Shown here in pieces: positions 11,233 to 46,433 of a DNA stretch of 53,852 nt. The first letter of the stretch is position 1, and every line of letters starts with the position of its first letter. The translations under genes were made by a program, and so were the position numbers. The notes under the pieces are model-generated. The model was given only the letters and a program-made list of their open reading frames with translations, was not told the DNA's origin and did not search any database. The DNA is from Clostridia bacterium (GTDB taxonomy: Bacteria > Bacillota > Clostridia > TANB77 > UBA1234): positions 160,242-214,093 of the forward strand of contig JAFTQC010000022.1 in NCBI GenBank assembly GCA_017462965.1, written 5' to 3'.

Positions 11233-11450
11233 CAAGAGGTACGGAGTCATCAGCGGGGACAGCCCTTTTTGAGAGAGCGTGTCATCAACGGGGACAGCCC
11301 TTTTTGATAAATGTAAGTATTGATAGTAATGCAAATTATTTTTACTTATTTATCAAAAAGGGCTGTCCCCGTTGATGACACGCTCTCTCAAAAAGGGCTG
11401 TCCCCGTTGATGACGCGCTTTCTCAAAAAGGGGCGTCCCTCTTGCTATTT
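11227..11450. repeat. giant nested palindrome A (67-bp arms, 35-nt loop, plus outer arms)
   Basis: Bases 11246-11312 are the reverse complement of 11348-11414 with a single mismatch. The 35-base loop is 11313-11347. Outside this, AAATAGCAAGAGG (11227-11239) pairs again with CCTCTTGCTATTT (11438-11450). Each arm contains two copies of a GTCATC-A-R-C-GGGGACAGCCC unit. The left edge overlaps the stop of the 9496 gene. It would form a very stable hairpin in RNA or single-stranded DNA. A sister element with related loop lies at 44042-44224. This palindrome fills most of the 306-base gap before the next coding start. Confidence 0.93.
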
Positions 11451-38638: not shown

Positions 38639-40321
38639 ATGAATAATGAAGAAATATTCGATGAAAACGATGTTGTTGGTATGGCTAATGCAGAGAGGTT
38701 GTATGAACAATTATTAATTGATAGTCCAATTTCTGAGGAAACAACAGTTATGTTTTTAGAATCGTTGGAAAAAACGTATCCTGATATTCCAACAAAATAT
38801 TTAGAAGAAATAGTTGATAAATATAATGCAGGTATTGTTTTGGAAAGTTTGCGTGCAAATAATCCGATTACTGCTGAAAATACAACAATAAGTTCACAAA
38901 TACTTGCTGAAACATATCCATATTTAACAGAAGGAGCTTTGAAAAAAGCGGCTGAAGAATATAATCTTTTAATTTATTTAGAAGATTTAAAAGAACGTGG
39001 TGGAGAAATAAGTGCAGATTCTACTCAAATTACATATGAACATTTGAAAGCTACATATCCTAACATGTCAGACAAAATGGTATGTGAATTAAGAGATAGA
39101 TATAACTTACTTATTTTATTTGAAGGTTTAAAACCTATAGAAAAAGATTCAACATGGCTTAATGCGAATGATTTGGCTAGAATGTATCCTGAAATGTCAA
39201 AAGATGCGTTAAGAGACATGGCTGGAAAATATAATTCTGAAGTTATATTTGAACAATTTTCAGAAAACGGTATATCGGCAGACAGTACATGGTTAAATGC
39301 AGAGTTCTTGCAAAAAATGTATCCTGGAATACCAATTGACCATCTTAGAACTATAGCAGATAGATATAATTCTATTATAGTTGAAAAAACTGAGCAATTG
39401 CATGATGTTGCAGAATCAGATTCGCATGTACGTAATTTTAAATTGCAAATGAATCCTAGGATGTATGAATTTATTGCACCGTTTCTTGACAAAATACCGA
39501 TTTCACTTCATATACGAAATGCAGCGGAGCTTTCGACAGAGCAACTGGAAAGTATGCCTAACGTAACAGAAGTTGTAATAAGAGATGGGGATAATACTCC
39601 AGTTTCTGGTGCACAAATAAAGCCATATACAAGGCAAGAATATATGGATTCAAAAAGAGTGATGGATAAACTTTTAGAAGATATACCAATGCCACAAACA
39701 CCAGAAGAACAAGTTGGCGTTGTAAATAAGGTATGCAAAAGACTAGCGGATCATATTGTTTACGATAGATATGCGATAACTGAAGAGGGAAAAAAGGATA
39801 GCGAATTACAAAAAACATGCAGAAATTTATACGGTGGACTTACACAAGGAAAGAGTGTTTGTGCAGGGTATGCGGACATTTTGAGAAATACACTTTCTTG
39901 CGTGGGGATTGAAAGTAAGTATATTCAAGGATTTCCAAAGGATAAAGGTGAGGCTGGACATGCATGGAACCAAGTAAAAATAAATGGAAGATGGTTTAAT
40001 TTAGATTTAACTTGGATGAATGAAAAAATTAGGAGTTCTGAAGAGGTTCCAAACAACATTTTGAAATTGGATGAAGAATTTACAGATCACCAAATGTATT
40101 CTGAATATAGAACGAGAAGTGAAAAAAAGTGTAATACTAGTTTAGAAAGAGCCGTAAGCGAACGCTCGGGGATACAGCGATTAAGAGATTTTACTAGACA
40201 TTGTGCAGAACGAACGAATGGAATAAAATTAACTTTGGGTGAAATTAGAAGTACGGTAGGAATTTTTAGAATGATGCAAAGAGCTATGCCACGGACAACA
40301 AAAAGACAGAAATGTTGCTGA
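38639..40321 (+). CDS. repeat protein with C-terminal transglutaminase-like domain
   Basis: The 560-residue protein has no signal peptide. Residues about 40-250 hold five repeats of about 45 residues, each with a TYP/MYP turn (Pro at 48, 94, 141, 184, 229) followed by a helix ending (R/K)YN (Asn at 63, 109, 156, 199, 244) and a hydrophobic ILE-type helix. The repeat family is unknown to me. The C-terminal domain (about 355-465) is transglutaminase-like, with Cys408 (KSVCAGYA), His441 (AGHAWNQV) and Asp456 (NLDLTW), so the Cys-His-Asp triad is intact. It could cleave or cross-link peptides or attach amines. The polyamine-type genes downstream make an amine substrate attractive, but that is inference. 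Confidence 0.78.
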   Translation: MNNEEIFDENDVVGMANAERLYEQLLIDSPISEETTVMFLESLEKTYPDIPTKYLEEIVDKYNAGIVLESLRANNPITAENTTISSQILAETYPYLTEGALKKAAEEYNLLIYLEDLKERGGEISADSTQITYEHLKATYPNMSDKMVCELRDRYNLLILFEGLKPIEKDSTWLNANDLARMYPEMSKDALRDMAGKYNSEVIFEQFSENGISADSTWLNAEFLQKMYPGIPIDHLRTIADRYNSIIVEKTEQLHDVAESDSHVRNFKLQMNPRMYEFIAPFLDKIPISLHIRNAAELSTEQLESMPNVTEVVIRDGDNTPVSGAQIKPYTRQEYMDSKRVMDKLLEDIPMPQTPEEQVGVVNKVCKRLADHIVYDRYAITEEGKKDSELQKTCRNLYGGLTQGKSVCAGYADILRNTLSCVGIESKYIQGFPKDKGEAGHAWNQVKINGRWFNLDLTWMNEKIRSSEEVPNNILKLDEEFTDHQMYSEYRTRSEKKCNTSLERAVSERSGIQRLRDFTRHCAERTNGIKLTLGEIRSTVGIFRMMQRAMPRTTKRQKCC

Positions 40322-40668: not shown

Positions 40669-41886
40669 ATGAGATTAATTTCTATTCCTAAAGATAAATA
40701 TGATGAATATAGGTTAAATGTGATTTTTGATTGTTATAAGTGGGATCCACAGTTTTTAGATAATAACACAATTGCCAAGCATGTTTTGGTTATCACAAAG
40801 GAAGAACATGAAGAATTGATGAAGTATACTGAAAGTTTAGATGTAGAAACGAGAGCGGCAGAAGAATTTTTGAATAAAAATTTGAAGTTTGCTAAAAAGC
40901 TTGCACTGCCTAAAAAACTTTCAAGAGAGCTTCGTAATATGAAAAATTATAGTCCGGATAAACATGTTCGTCTTATGAGATATGATTTTCATCCAACAAT
41001 CGAAGATAAGTGGGCTATAAGTGAAGTTAATAGTGATGTTCCTGGAGGATTTGCAGAAGCATCGCTTATGCCGCAAGCTGCTAAAGATGTGATAAATATG
41101 GAAGAGCTTTGGCATAAAAATTTTGGCGATATTTTGACAAATGCCATTGCTAAAAAAGTTAAGGTAAATGGTACTATTATGCTTGTTCATTGCACTTCGT
41201 ATAGTGATGATAGACAAGTCATGCAATATTTAGGTGATAAGCTAAAAAAAATGGGCTTTAAGATTATTTATGCTGCGGCGGATCATTTGAATTTTAAAAA
41301 TAATGAAGCTTTTAGTATTCTTGATGGTAATGAAGGAAAGGTGGATGGCATCGTTAGGTTTACGCCTCTAGAATGGCTTATTGATATTAAGCCTAAACGT
41401 TGGCAAGGATACTTTGATACAATCACTCCTTCTTGTAATCATCCTGTTGCAATATTTGCGCAAACAAAACGTTTTCCTCTTATATGGGATTTGCTTGAAA
41501 AATCGGGATTAAAGTTGGATACATGGAGAGAATTGCTTCCTGAAACGATTGAAGTTAAAGATGCTAAAAATAAAGAAGGGTTTATTTATAAGCCTGCATG
41601 TGGAAGAGTTGGGGAGAAAATTTCTATAAAAGAAGCTTGTGTTGAAGGTGAATATGAGAAAATTCTCAAAGATGTGAAGAAACATCCGAAAAAATATTTG
41701 GCTCAAAAAAGATTTAATAGTAAGCCATTAGTGAGTGATGAGGGTGAAAATTATCATGTTTGTTTAGGTTCATACAGTGTTGATGGTAAGCATGCGGGCT
41801 ATTATGCTAGAATTAGCAAAACTCCACGTATTGATTCAAATGCTGCGGATATTCCTGTGTTAATAGAAGGAGGTATAGCCTTATGA
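40669..41886 (+). CDS. glutathionylspermidine synthetase-like ATP-grasp ligase
   Basis: The 405 residues resemble the GSP_synth pre-ATP-grasp/ATP-grasp family, whose members join a carboxylate to an amine such as spermidine using ATP. RYDFHPTIEDKWAISEVNSDVPGGFAEAS (spread over residues 104-132) is the most telling stretch. Later come IYKPACGRVGEKISI (ATP-grasp lysine and glycine loop), YLAQKRF, and a C-terminal metal-site region. The peptide partner is unlikely to be glutathione in such an organism, so the true substrate is open. It overlaps the next gene by 4 bases (ATGA) and is two genes before a homospermidine-synthase-like gene. Confidence 0.75.
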   Translation: MRLISIPKDKYDEYRLNVIFDCYKWDPQFLDNNTIAKHVLVITKEEHEELMKYTESLDVETRAAEEFLNKNLKFAKKLALPKKLSRELRNMKNYSPDKHVRLMRYDFHPTIEDKWAISEVNSDVPGGFAEASLMPQAAKDVINMEELWHKNFGDILTNAIAKKVKVNGTIMLVHCTSYSDDRQVMQYLGDKLKKMGFKIIYAAADHLNFKNNEAFSILDGNEGKVDGIVRFTPLEWLIDIKPKRWQGYFDTITPSCNHPVAIFAQTKRFPLIWDLLEKSGLKLDTWRELLPETIEVKDAKNKEGFIYKPACGRVGEKISIKEACVEGEYEKILKDVKKHPKKYLAQKRFNSKPLVSDEGENYHVCLGSYSVDGKHAGYYARISKTPRIDSNAADIPVLIEGGIAL

Positions 41887-42539
41887 TTAATAAAGATATA
41901 TTTAAAATTTGGGCGCCTGTGGATGCTAAATGGGTGGACTGGGTTAGACCTGTTCCTTTTATTTCTATTGATGATGAATTGAAAACATATGAGAGTTTTA
42001 ATTTTGTGATTCCTAATGTGAATTATATAGAAGAAAAATCAGTGGATACGGCATGGTTTGTGGATTTGCCAAGTTATGATAGTGTGGCTGAAGGACTTGC
42101 ACTTGCTAGTAAGTTTGGATTTAGGCCAATTCCTATTTACAACGGGACGAATGAGCAGCAAGGTGCGATGGCGAATGTTAATAATCAAACAATTGAGGTG
42201 GCTTTAGTATGGGGAGCATATGTGCTTTTAAAATTAAAACTTGAAAAGGATGCATTGCCAGTTTTTTTACTTGATAGCAATCGTATGAACAGATATAAAA
42301 TGTCTCCTTCTGTGTTTGATAATAGTTGGGATATATATCATCAAGACATTCCTTCAGCTGAATATTTTTTGAATAATGGTATCAAAAAAATTGTTGTTCG
42401 AGGAAAAGAAAAAATCGAAAAGGATTTAAGTAAGATTTTTTATGGATTTCAAAAGAAGGGAATAAAATTCTTTTTCACGGATGGTTACAGTGAACCTAAA
42501 GAGGTTGTAATTAAAAAGCCTAAGCGTGATGATGACTAA
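41883..42539 (+). CDS. conserved hypothetical protein of the polyamine operon, 218 aa
   Basis: I do not recognise a named family. The protein has an alpha/beta look, with FVIPNVNYIEEKSVDTAWFVDLPSYDSVAEGLALA being rich in short strands and helices, RPIPIYNGTN following, and a long middle helix around VALVWGAYVLLKLKLE. The C-terminus is basic (KKPKRDDD). There is no signal peptide. Its 4-base overlap with the ATP-grasp gene and 18-base gap to the homospermidine-synthase-like gene make a joint function likely, perhaps as a partner subunit. Confidence 0.6.
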   Translation: MINKDIFKIWAPVDAKWVDWVRPVPFISIDDELKTYESFNFVIPNVNYIEEKSVDTAWFVDLPSYDSVAEGLALASKFGFRPIPIYNGTNEQQGAMANVNNQTIEVALVWGAYVLLKLKLEKDALPVFLLDSNRMNRYKMSPSVFDNSWDIYHQDIPSAEYFLNNGIKKIVVRGKEKIEKDLSKIFYGFQKKGIKFFFTDGYSEPKEVVIKKPKRDDD

Positions 42540-42557
42540 TTAAGGGAGTGTAAGCAT

Positions 42558-44027
42558 ATGATAAAATTTGACGGAAGAATTGTTCAATTTGGATTTGGCG
42601 CAGTGGGTAAAAGTTTTTATGAAAAATTAAATAAAGAGATTAAATTTGATGAGAATAAGTATTTTGTTATAACTATGGATAAAGATGAATTTGATGCGTA
42701 TGTTGGTTTTGGTGGACTTGTTGCTAATTTTGTTAATTGTGAAGTGACAAAAGATAATTTTCGCGAAGTGTTCGAAAAGTATTTAGACGAAGGTGATTTG
42801 CTTATAGATTTTGCTGATACGGTTGGGACTAGAGAAATTTGTGAATGGTGTGCCGAAAATAATATCATGTATCTTAATACTGGAGAGGCTGATTGGCCGG
42901 AAAATTGGTATAGTATTTTTAATGAAAATTTACTTAAAAATGAGATAAAGAAAAAACATAATGATAGTAAGGATACTAATCGATATCCGATAGTGTTACA
43001 ACATGGTAATAATCCTGGTTTAGTTTCTCATTTTGTAAAAGCGGGGATTGAGTACATTGTTGATACCCAGTTTAAAAAAGATAAGAAATTTAAAAAGCTT
43101 GTGAGTGACGGTAAGTTCAATGAAGTTGCGAAAGAATTGGGAATAAAAATGATTCATGTAAATGATATTGATTTGCAGGAAGTGAAAGATACATATAAAG
43201 ATAATACTTTGTATAGTACATGGTGTATCGATTCGTTTTTTTTCGAAATGCTTAGTGAGGCAACTTTCGATATGGGAACTCATGAAAAAGTTACCTTTGA
43301 AAATGATTGCAACATGCTTGATCATAAAAATGGTTTTGTAGAGCTTAGAAGTCTTGCAACAGATACGAAATGCCGTACATATTATCCAAATGGAGAATTT
43401 GAAGGATTTTTGGTTCCACATGAAGAAACAATTACAATAGCCAAAGGCTTAGAGGTAGTAGAGGAAGGCAAATGCATTTACAGACCATCCGTTATGTTTT
43501 TGTATTCGCCATGCAGATTTGCCAGAAATTATTTATCAGGAGCAAAAGTGAATAGCTATCCAAATGTGGATCCCGAGAAACCTCAAGACTGTGAAAATGA
43601 AAATGGAAAAACCATAGTAAGGGGATATGTATACCCTGAAAAAGCAGAAATTATTTATAAAGAAAAAATTGAGTCAGGAACGGAATATGTAGGAGTATTG
43701 ATTATAGGAGATAATTTTAAGCCGGTATGGGTGGGTAACCGAATCGAACAGTCATTTTTGTACAAAGATAAGAAAACATCATATTGGCAAACCCCTACGA
43801 TTACACCAGTTGCAATGTCAGCACTTGCCGCAACATGTTGGATGATAAAAAACAAAGAAAGAGGAGGAATATACTTCCCAGATGACATACCAGATTACAA
43901 ATATATATTAAAATTAGCAGAAAAATATATATCAAAAACAATTTACAAAACATTTGAAAAGCAAACACTAGAAGAAACAATGAAAATAGACTTTACAGAT
44001 TTGCAATCAAAAGATTTATTTTGCTAA
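42558..44027 (+). CDS. homospermidine synthase-like protein (saccharopine dehydrogenase superfamily)
   Basis: Bacterial homospermidine synthase makes homospermidine from two putrescines (or putrescine and spermidine) with NAD. The 489 residues start with a Rossmann motif IVQFGFGAVGKSFYEKL, contain MYLNTGEADWPENW in the place of the HSS NTCVEPW segment, and have LQHGNNPGLVSHFVKAG and DMGTHEKV, which closely follow the HSS motifs HGANPG and GTHE. The length is also that of HSS. The changes around NTGEADW could mean a different amine substrate. It ends the operon, just before giant palindrome B. Confidence 0.75.
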   Translation: MIKFDGRIVQFGFGAVGKSFYEKLNKEIKFDENKYFVITMDKDEFDAYVGFGGLVANFVNCEVTKDNFREVFEKYLDEGDLLIDFADTVGTREICEWCAENNIMYLNTGEADWPENWYSIFNENLLKNEIKKKHNDSKDTNRYPIVLQHGNNPGLVSHFVKAGIEYIVDTQFKKDKKFKKLVSDGKFNEVAKELGIKMIHVNDIDLQEVKDTYKDNTLYSTWCIDSFFFEMLSEATFDMGTHEKVTFENDCNMLDHKNGFVELRSLATDTKCRTYYPNGEFEGFLVPHEETITIAKGLEVVEEGKCIYRPSVMFLYSPCRFARNYLSGAKVNSYPNVDPEKPQDCENENGKTIVRGYVYPEKAEIIYKEKIESGTEYVGVLIIGDNFKPVWVGNRIEQSFLYKDKKTSYWQTPTITPVAMSALAATCWMIKNKERGGIYFPDDIPDYKYILKLAEKYISKTIYKTFEKQTLEETMKIDFTDLQSKDLFC

Positions 44028-44041
44028 AAAAGACAGGTGAC

Positions 44042-44224
44042 AGAGTCATCATGAGGGACAGCCCTTTTTGAGAGAAGGAGAGAGTCATCAACGGGGACAG
44101 CCCTTTTTGATAAATATAAGAATTAATAAAAGTGCAAATTCTTTTTAATTATTTATCAAAAAGGGCTGTCCCCGTTGATGACTCTCTCCTTCTCTCAAAA
44201 AGGGCTGTCCCTCATGATGACTCT
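44042..44224. repeat. giant palindrome B (perfect 74-bp arms, 35-nt loop)
   Basis: Bases 44042-44115 are the exact reverse complement of 44151-44224. The 35-base loop (44116-44150) is identical at 27 of 35 positions to the loop of palindrome A at 11313-11347, including TGCAAATT. Each arm carries two GAGTCATCA units and two GGGACAGCCC cores. A half-copy of the GTCC repeat follows (to about 44240). The element separates two convergent genes and would block transcription on both strands or be an RNase III substrate. Confidence 0.95.
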
Positions 44225-44240
44225 TTCCCTTTGTCCTTTT

Positions 44241-46433
44241 TTATTTATTTAGTGGCCACCGCCACCGCCGCCGCCACCACGACCGCCGCCGCCGTATCCG
44301 CCAGCTTCCTCCGCCGTAGCCACCACCGTAGAAGCTACTTCTTGATGTACGGTATGCTCTACGAGTAGTTGTTCTGAACGAACGTCCACTTGAATAGAAG
44401 CTATGTGAACGATAATATGGATTACGAAGCATTGGGCTCATGTCGATGTCTGGGCATCTAATCTTAAGTGCAGAAATTACTTTCTCAGAAATACCAAATG
44501 CGGTTGCATATACTAAATATTGTTCCCACAAAGGCAATTCGATAACTGTACGTTCTTTCATAAGTGTTTCACTATTTAAGAAATTATACAAACCACGCCA
44601 TTTTACGTATTCATCTTCACCAAATTGAGTAAGTAAAACGAATTGCTTAGATAATTTCTTAAGATAAATTGAGTTATATATACATGCTCCACCTAATATG
44701 AAGAAAGCACCAAATGCAAAATCAATACGAGTTTGGTATGAAATAAGGTTAGCTAGTATAATAATCAAGATTCCCCAAATCATTTGAGAATTTGCTTTCT
44801 TTTGAAGTGCTATTTTAGGTGCATCATAATTTGATTTTTGGAAATATCCTTGAGATACTCCAATGTTAATGATGGCATTTTTAATATTTGTAACAAAACT
44901 TTCTGTGTTTTCATAATCATTAGAAACTCTTGATTGAAGTCTGCTCATAGAGATTTCTACGCCATAAGCATATTTAGAAATTAAGTTAAAATAAAGCTCT
45001 TCTGTCTTAGTAAGAGGATTTTCTTCAACAGTTTCCTCAACAACATTATCAATTTCATTAACTTTTTTCATTTCATCTAAAAATGAATCAGGAACATCAG
45101 TTAATATATCTAAACGATTAATTTCTTCCTGTATAGCTTGAAATTGTGGTGGTCTAAATGTCTTAATTTGACGTTTTATAACAATTTTTACATTATTAAA
45201 TGTCCAATCTTTATATGGATCAATTTTGTCTAATTCAATGTAACCTTTGCGAACCAAACTTAAAATTACAGCTGAATATCCGTCCTTACTTTCTTTATCT
45301 TCCTTGTGAGAACGATGTTTACAAAAAACAAGTTCAGAAGCAAAATTTGGATCCAATTCACTAGGAATATCTCTAAAATAATAAGCTTCTAGTGAAGGCT
45401 TGTAAAAAGTGTGTTCAGCTCTCATTTGACCGTCTTTATTATGTGCTGATTTTACAATTAAAACAGCTACGCCAGAGCAAATTATCAATATAATAATTTT
45501 CTTACAAGCATATTCTAATACTAAACCTTCATATTCTTTTTGTTCATCTCTAAGCTCTTGAAGAACGTCATCATAAGTATAATGATTTGAAGGCGCATAT
45601 TCTGTAAAAATGTGTTTATCAGCGCCATGAGCAACTAAATCAAATTCAATGTATTCATTGTATGGTCTAAACTTCAAATCTGATTTATCAAGATCAAATG
45701 AAAACGTATGATAACCTGGATTTAAAGTAGTAGACTCTGTAAATTCGAAATCATGACTATTTGTACCAAAAGTATACGCATCATAATTTCCTTTCCTTGG
45801 CATATCAGCAAGCGGAATTAAAATTTCGCCTTTAAATGATTCCAGATGATTTACAGTATCTTCAGAATACATACATAAATACAATTCTGAACAGTCAGCA
45901 TAACGTAAAGCAGCATTATTCATTTCATATTCAATCTCAAAAACAAGCTCATCACGATAAATACCATTAATGTAAAGCATCAAACACTCATATTGACGTC
46001 TGTATTCATTATAAGGTCCCTTACTGTGAAACCACTTGTTAGGACCGTAATGAGGAGCTACATAATCATAATCATCCCAATACAATTTAGGACTTTCTTT
46101 ATATACTAGCTCAGTTCCATCATCCAATATTTGTTTTACTGAATTTACCTTGTAATCAACCTTTAAACCATCAACATAATCCTCAGGTAAATCTCTCCAT
46201 AACTCCCAAAAAGGATTGTCTTCATATGCGGCATGAATATCGAAAGTTAAACGTTCAGTAACAACAACTTTACCGCTATTGTTTGGTTCGTCAACAACAA
46301 CAGCTTTGTATTCAACATCAGTTATTCTAGCATAGTCAAAAGGATTTATGTCTGATTCCTCAAACATGTAAGGCGCCATGCTGACGAACATTATGATGAA
46401 AAACACAACTAGTGTAATTACAGTTTCTTTCAT
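44241..46433 (-). CDS. DUF2207 membrane protein with frameshifted Gly-rich tail
   Basis: This 730-residue protein matches the DUF2207 family. Residues about 6-25 form a signal or anchor helix. An outside beta-rich domain (about 35-300) includes TERLTFDIHAAYEDNPFWELWRDLP spread over its first part. A second helix (about 322-342) and a further pair (about 580-620) frame cytosolic parts. The normal Gly-rich end is present in the DNA but shifted: an extra base near 44303 turns SGGYGGGGRGGG into SWRIRRRRSWW, and the in-phase stop would be 44249. The ATG at 46433 follows AAGGGGGA; an upstream in-frame start at 46508 overlaps repeat sequence and is not used. Confidence 0.82.
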   Translation of the reverse strand: MKETVITLVVFFIIMFVSMAPYMFEESDINPFDYARITDVEYKAVVVDEPNNSGKVVVTERLTFDIHAAYEDNPFWELWRDLPEDYVDGLKVDYKVNSVKQILDDGTELVYKESPKLYWDDYDYVAPHYGPNKWFHSKGPYNEYRRQYECLMLYINGIYRDELVFEIEYEMNNAALRYADCSELYLCMYSEDTVNHLESFKGEILIPLADMPRKGNYDAYTFGTNSHDFEFTESTTLNPGYHTFSFDLDKSDLKFRPYNEYIEFDLVAHGADKHIFTEYAPSNHYTYDDVLQELRDEQKEYEGLVLEYACKKIIILIICSGVAVLIVKSAHNKDGQMRAEHTFYKPSLEAYYFRDIPSELDPNFASELVFCKHRSHKEDKESKDGYSAVILSLVRKGYIELDKIDPYKDWTFNNVKIVIKRQIKTFRPPQFQAIQEEINRLDILTDVPDSFLDEMKKVNEIDNVVEETVEENPLTKTEELYFNLISKYAYGVEISMSRLQSRVSNDYENTESFVTNIKNAIINIGVSQGYFQKSNYDAPKIALQKKANSQMIWGILIIILANLISYQTRIDFAFGAFFILGGACIYNSIYLKKLSKQFVLLTQFGEDEYVKWRGLYNFLNSETLMKERTVIELPLWEQYLVYATAFGISEKVISALKIRCPDIDMSPMLRNPYYRSHSFYSSGRSFRTTTRRAYRTSRSSFYGGGYGGGSWRIRRRRSWWRRRWRWPLNK

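Follow-up and report, generated by a model that had tools for sequence, protein, structure and literature searches.

Conjugates of polyamines are known from few bacteria. Linkage of a homospermidine synthase (HSS) gene with a gene for a ligase resembling glutathionylspermidine synthetase (GspS, or Gss) has been published for Achromobacter phage Motura and for Betaproteobacteria, with glutathionylhomospermidine as the proposed product (PMC9992855). GspS-like ATP-grasp proteins also occur with DUF350 in PspA-associated polyamine operons (PMC11237479). A third group of relatives is formed by the E. coli proteins YgiC and YjfC, reported as peptide-spermidine ligases (Pederick 2023, as cited in PMC12568646). 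Their RefSeq annotation gives the same activity. We know of no natural acid partner of a YgiC/YjfC-type ligase.

The window, which is the whole stretch of DNA analysed, comprises 53,852 nucleotides from a Clostridia bacterium (GCA_017462965.1; the contamination of this assembly is listed as 4.67%). It contains three genuine open reading frames, all on the plus strand and with operon-like spacing, together with a convergent gene:

40669–41886, plus strand: gene 1, a GSP_synth-family ATP-grasp ligase of 405 aa
41883–42539, plus strand: gene 2, here called MID, 218 aa, with no family match over cut-off
42558–44027, plus strand: gene 3, an HSS homologue of 489 aa
44241–46508, minus strand: a predicted membrane protein of the DUF2207 family, encoded convergently to the operon and its conserved fourth partner

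The ligase and MID genes overlap by 4 bp (ATGA), and Shine-Dalgarno-like leaders (GAGGG, AAGGAGG and AAGGGAG) precede genes 1, 2 and 3, respectively. We read this set as a polyamine–carboxylate conjugation module of gut Bacillota, with a probability of roughly 0.6.

Two other features lie close to these genes. A 560-aa protein encoded at 38639–40321 has a transglutaminase-like core (E 1.6e-9) preceded by internal repeats of about 45 residues; this gene is not conserved beside the ligase set. Between the HSS and DUF2207 genes is an inverted repeat (44039–44227; 78-nt arms, 99%, and a 33-nt spacer) which looks like a palindromic repeat element. Its motif GGACAGCCCTTTTTGA is found again at 11257–11403, with degenerate single copies at 11423, 46503 and 49330; there are 11 matches against 0.01 expected. 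The other loci fetched held no exact copy of the repeat.

Species genomes were scanned with the HSS protein, which gave 36 loci in MAGs labelled Clostridia, Lachnospiraceae, Oscillospiraceae, Eubacteriales or Bacilli, many of them named after animal gut samples. The order ligase, MID, HSS was present in all 34 loci with enough upstream DNA; in one, L018, the ligase frame is broken. Constant neighbours were sought by clustering the ORFs around the loci. The genes upstream of the set showed no conservation among them. Four loci ended too early to judge the other side; of the remaining 32, 30 had the DUF2207 gene in convergent position next to the set, as does the window. In the two loci where it is missing (L004 and L014), HSS is directly followed by a gene whose sequence reads as that of a TnpB-like transposon protein (L004:3930–4864 and L014:7643–8785), and little of the record is left beyond it.

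A survey not selected on HSS covered 95 genomes, namely this one and its relatives up to the same order. The ligase was present in 21. HSS was found in 16 of these and MID in 20, with the locus truncated by a contig end in the one that lacks MID; neither occurred in the other 74. A close DUF2207 orthologue (E < 1e-60) was found in 19 of the 21, and G008 and G062, which lack it, are also cut by contig ends; the 74 genomes without the ligase held distant DUF2207 paralogues at best, and no close orthologue. Fisher's test on co-occurrence with the ligase gave p values of 4e-14 or lower, shared ancestry being ignored. Pairwise distances among the four proteins correlate (r 0.88–0.93), as is expected of genes inherited together, and may do so only through shared descent.

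Four genomes (G006, G012, G016 and G031) possess the ligase, MID and a directly convergent DUF2207 gene, with HSS nowhere in the genome, so that HSS is missing from 4 of 20 testable ligase genomes. These four, taken with the DUF2207 linkage, define a core of ligase, MID and DUF2207 to which HSS is a usual but dispensable addition. An earlier note on this DNA, made from the sequence alone, had proposed a three-gene operon which makes an unusual polyamine and attaches it to a carboxylate. Its enzyme families and the linkage among relatives have stood. Its strict two-enzyme pathway fails as a general rule, given the four genomes devoid of HSS, and its list of members was incomplete, the DUF2207 membrane protein belonging as well.

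One genome, G003, harbours a decaying copy of the set: the ligase and MID contain in-frame stops (L067; G003:C1:112000–128000), HSS is intact, and DUF2207 fragments sit on a different contig from these three genes. Phylum-wide, the ligase–MID pair was recovered from two of 398 genomes, this one and the distant Bacillota genome G406, where a ligase with an in-frame TGA adjoins the start of MID at the contig end (L104:61–1366). There were no further carriers of the pair among the relatives of G406. Carriage as phage cargo was rejected, both genes being absent from the phage records and viral contigs searched.

The Pfam domains of gene 3 are of the saccharopine-dehydrogenase type. Its best PDB matches are HSS (2ph5, E 1.8e-37; the Blastochloris enzyme 4plp, E 7.7e-29), as are all 14 of the PDB sequences that it matched; saccharopine and carboxynorspermidine dehydrogenases were rejected on this ground, in agreement with the HSS-like assignment first made for it. 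The altered segment pointed out in the same note, NTGEADW, aligns with DTVVEPW of the Blastochloris enzyme; DTCVEPW and DTCIEPW are found in the Motura and Pseudomonas HSS proteins. A change of this type is present in 26 of 26 clade members and is thus not a sequencing error.

Using the residue roles given in PMC4725965, the core residues Asn162, Trp229, Glu237, His296 and Glu298 are identical and invariant across the clade, which also shares the conservative changes E210D, D361E and Y323F. At the entrance, all 26 members have Asp94 replaced by Thr/Ser, Val115 by Gly, Val116 by Glu/Asp, Glu117 by Ala/Thr, Pro118 by Asp, Gly233 by Ser/Thr and Ser236 by Phe, and V93 is likewise replaced clade-wide. 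Among outgroup HSS proteins position 117 is Glu in 10 of 10, and D94 is variable there too. New acids (D87, E110 and D112) adjoin the positions of the lost D94 and E117. By alignment, gene 3 appears to have kept its catalytic core and to have had its substrate entrance rewritten throughout the clade. This suggests altered substrate handling and, because new acids lie nearby, falls short of proving a new substrate.

These entrance replacements, with the residues for chemistry staying in place, also bear on another order of events, in which the ligase would act first and HSS would then extend its product by an aminobutyl group, through an entrance that admits the larger, conjugated amine. Such an order would accord with the distribution of HSS, which some ligase genomes lack and which is never seen where the ligase is missing, but the new acids could simply redo amine binding, and we consider it rather unlikely.

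More divergent HSS proteins were also encountered. Identity to gene 3 is only 22–27% for the HSS of Motura and for those from seven viral contigs. Another, on an Alteromonas plasmid (L077:3992–5416), is flanked by genes for a cyclic peptide exporter and an NRPS, which suggests use in a natural-product cluster.

The product of gene 1 matches Pfam PF03738, GSP_synth (76.8 bits, cut-off 29.3; E 2.4e-21). Its AlphaFold2 model (pLDDT 86) has E. coli YjfC as the best solved fold (7uk6; Z 31.4 over 364 residues, 3.6 A), then E. coli YgiC (Z 29.7) and GspS (Z 28.4), with glutathione synthetases and trypanothione synthetase as the next matches. The GSP-synthetase-like assignment of the earlier note is borne out, the protein aligning to the GspS/YgiC/YjfC family and to no unrelated ATP-grasp family.

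Residues were mapped by aligning the ligase and 33 relatives with GspS, YgiC, YjfC and the Motura enzyme. Equivalents of GspS R316, D318, E330, N332, K533, R538 and R598 are invariant in the 33 relatives, a count which leaves out the K498 column since it is offset by one from the invariant Lys267; all seven are ATP/Mg and acyl-phosphate residues of GspS. In fungal Cp1B, mutation of the corresponding R, D, E or N residue abolishes or strongly lowers activity (PMC12568646). The positions of GspS Ser335, Ser337 and Cys338 are occupied in the clade by Val/Cys, Gly and Gly, and those of Asp389 and Glu392 by Asp in all relatives aligned. Glu391 falls in an alignment gap in the clade and is absent from YgiC and YjfC also. 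According to a review (PMC6272389), Glu391 and Ser337 act in the binding of spermidine and in the amine attack, and the replacement of Ser337 by Gly in 33 of 33 relatives was counted, with the Glu391 gap, against a polyamine-ligation reading. On alignment and model, gene 1 is a predicted polyamine–carboxylate (peptide) ligase, and it is possible that the substrates of both this enzyme and HSS are new.

The metabolic setting was examined by searching the genome for enzymes of glutathione and polyamine synthesis. Glutamate–cysteine ligases were sought as the PF04262 family; none was detected in this genome, and the family was missing from 16 of 18 genomes tested, this one included. Nor was there a clear spermidine synthase, the Spermine_synth match in this genome being below cut-off. 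Both results argue against classic glutathionylspermidine, the occurrence of which had been doubted from the start, as do the changed glutathione-side residues of the ligase. Ornithine/arginine decarboxylases were sought as the PF01276 family, and none was detected in this genome. Hits of the potA model to ABC proteins are ubiquitous, none of them over cut-off in this genome, and so give little information on polyamine uptake. The lack of PF01276 and of potA over cut-off was counted against the conjugation module as regards its source of putrescine; uptake from outside is the probable origin of putrescine or spermidine.

Glutathione could likewise be imported, and the published proposal for the same gene pair (PMC9992855) would then have HSS make homospermidine and the ligase conjugate this with glutathione acquired from the gut. 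We judge this improbable here, in view of the absence of PF04262 from 16 of 18 genomes, the replacement of Ser335, Ser337 and Cys338, and a ligase–GspS identity of only 15–17%.

No Pfam or NCBIfam model reached its cut-off with MID; the window protein scored 14.3 bits against DUF3137 (cut-off 26.1), and the best E value, from one member, was 0.00018. Its AlphaFold2 model (pLDDT 87) is Rossmann-like alpha/beta, with no confident fold match (best Foldseek E 0.02, best VIA Z 4.7). The best hits, to Dot1L, FtsY and PTS IIB, were rejected as too weak to name the fold. Residues D61, N87, G88, R134, D146, N147, S148 and D155 are invariant and sit at or just past strand ends in the predicted model. 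In Rossmann-like folds, ligands are usually bound at or just after strand ends, and the model would place the invariant residues of MID in the ligand-binding region. Two further identities were rejected: the amidase half of Gss, the Cys/His columns being conserved in under half of the relatives, and the small protein encoded at the HSS loci of Motura or Legionella, to which MID shows no similarity.

The convergent gene has both of its domains over cut-off: DUF2207_C (E 1.4e-31; 110.6 bits against 33) and DUF2207 (E 1.9e-8; 35.2 bits against 24.4). The last 25 or so residues of the window ORF (44241–44310) do not follow the reading frame usual in the clade, and an alternative frame yields the clade's usual tail GGYGGGGRGGGGGGGGH. 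Five loci (L005, L009, L010, L033 and L034) share another frameshifted ending, so there is more than one kind of variation in tail frame. In most loci the C-terminus YGGGGRGGGGGGGGH is near-constant. Four relatives end in GGGGS, and glycine-rich tails are common in DUF2207 paralogues unlinked to the ligase.

That the ligase targets a protein or cell-wall carboxylate such as this glycine-rich C-terminus, and not a small molecule, is highly improbable: a constant partner with a near-constant tail, and relatives (YgiC and YjfC) said to use peptides in the work cited by PMC12568646, speak for it, but the glycine-rich tails of unlinked paralogues weaken the case for a ligase-specific target, and the tail is frameshifted in five relatives and finishes with GGGGS in four.

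In the conjugation module that we favour, the ligase would phosphorylate a carboxylate and couple the resulting acyl phosphate with a polyamine through one of its primary amines, a chemistry modelled on GspS and on that reported for YgiC and YjfC. HSS, where present, would couple putrescine-type amines in an NAD-dependent reaction to give homospermidine or a close variant, which would be the polyamine preferred by the ligase; where HSS is absent the ligase must take an amine obtained in another way. MID would assist the ligase throughout, most likely as a small enzyme or a protein that binds a ligand, and would prepare the acid or handle the conjugate. With DUF2207 as the membrane-side partner, the conjugate probably acts at the envelope. 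Comparison of sequences and structures establishes the families, the retained catalytic residues, the linkage of the four genes and their co-occurrence, from which the substrates, the product and the parts played by MID and DUF2207 are inferred.

A fuller version of this module is put forward only tentatively. It describes a Gram-positive envelope system with a new, non-glutathione polyamine conjugate, a re-specialised HSS, a ligase–MID pair in which MID is a new enzyme family, and use or export of the product by DUF2207. In either form the module has few members and lends itself to testing: besides a ligase it comprises an altered HSS, a membrane partner and a protein assigned to no known family. 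Its carriers are uncultured gut bacteria with small genomes, in which little other polyamine synthesis was detected, and through it a predicted chemistry becomes linked to DUF2207, itself an uncharacterised family.

Among known systems, YgiC and YjfC share with the ligase the whole-length fold, the catalytic Arg/Asp/Glu/Asn/Lys set, the lack of an amidase domain and a neighbourhood of envelope-protein genes (E. coli yjfIJKLMC). They differ in sequence (about 15% identity; their PTS motif is PGG in the ligase) and in partners, which are DUF1190, DUF350 and PspA-like proteins, whereas here they are MID and DUF2207, with HSS in the operon. E. coli GspS has the ATP-grasp synthetase domain and most catalytic residues in common with the ligase, at 15–17% identity, but the ligase lacks the amidase domain, has not kept Ser335, Ser337 or Cys338, has an alignment gap at Glu391, and belongs to a host genome which appears to be without glutathione synthesis. 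The HSS of Blastochloris viridis (BvHSS) is homologous to gene 3 over its full length and has the same catalytic core apart from the changes E210D, D361E and Y323F; the D94/E117 "ionic slide" of its entrance is replaced in gene 3, with new acids at neighbouring positions.

The PspA-associated operons (PMC11237479) likewise combine a GspS-like ligase with polyamine enzymes and a membrane protein that is uncharacterised, but their PspA, DUF350, potassium channel and AdoMet decarboxylase are not among the constant neighbours here. A GspS-like ligase beside a membrane protein is a known theme, as in these operons and in yjfIJKLMC. The hss-gss clusters of Motura and Betaproteobacteria (PMC9992855) also have HSS near a GspS-like ligase, with a homospermidine conjugate proposed; they differ in an HSS of about 22% identity (Motura), in gene order and in having no DUF2207, and the small protein between HSS and ligase in Motura is not MID. 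Since that linkage is already published, the present set is a Bacillota variant of it with two new partners. Novel features of the set are its lineage (Bacillota), the presence of MID and of a DUF2207 partner, the changes fixed in both ligase and HSS, and the evidence for a dispensable HSS.
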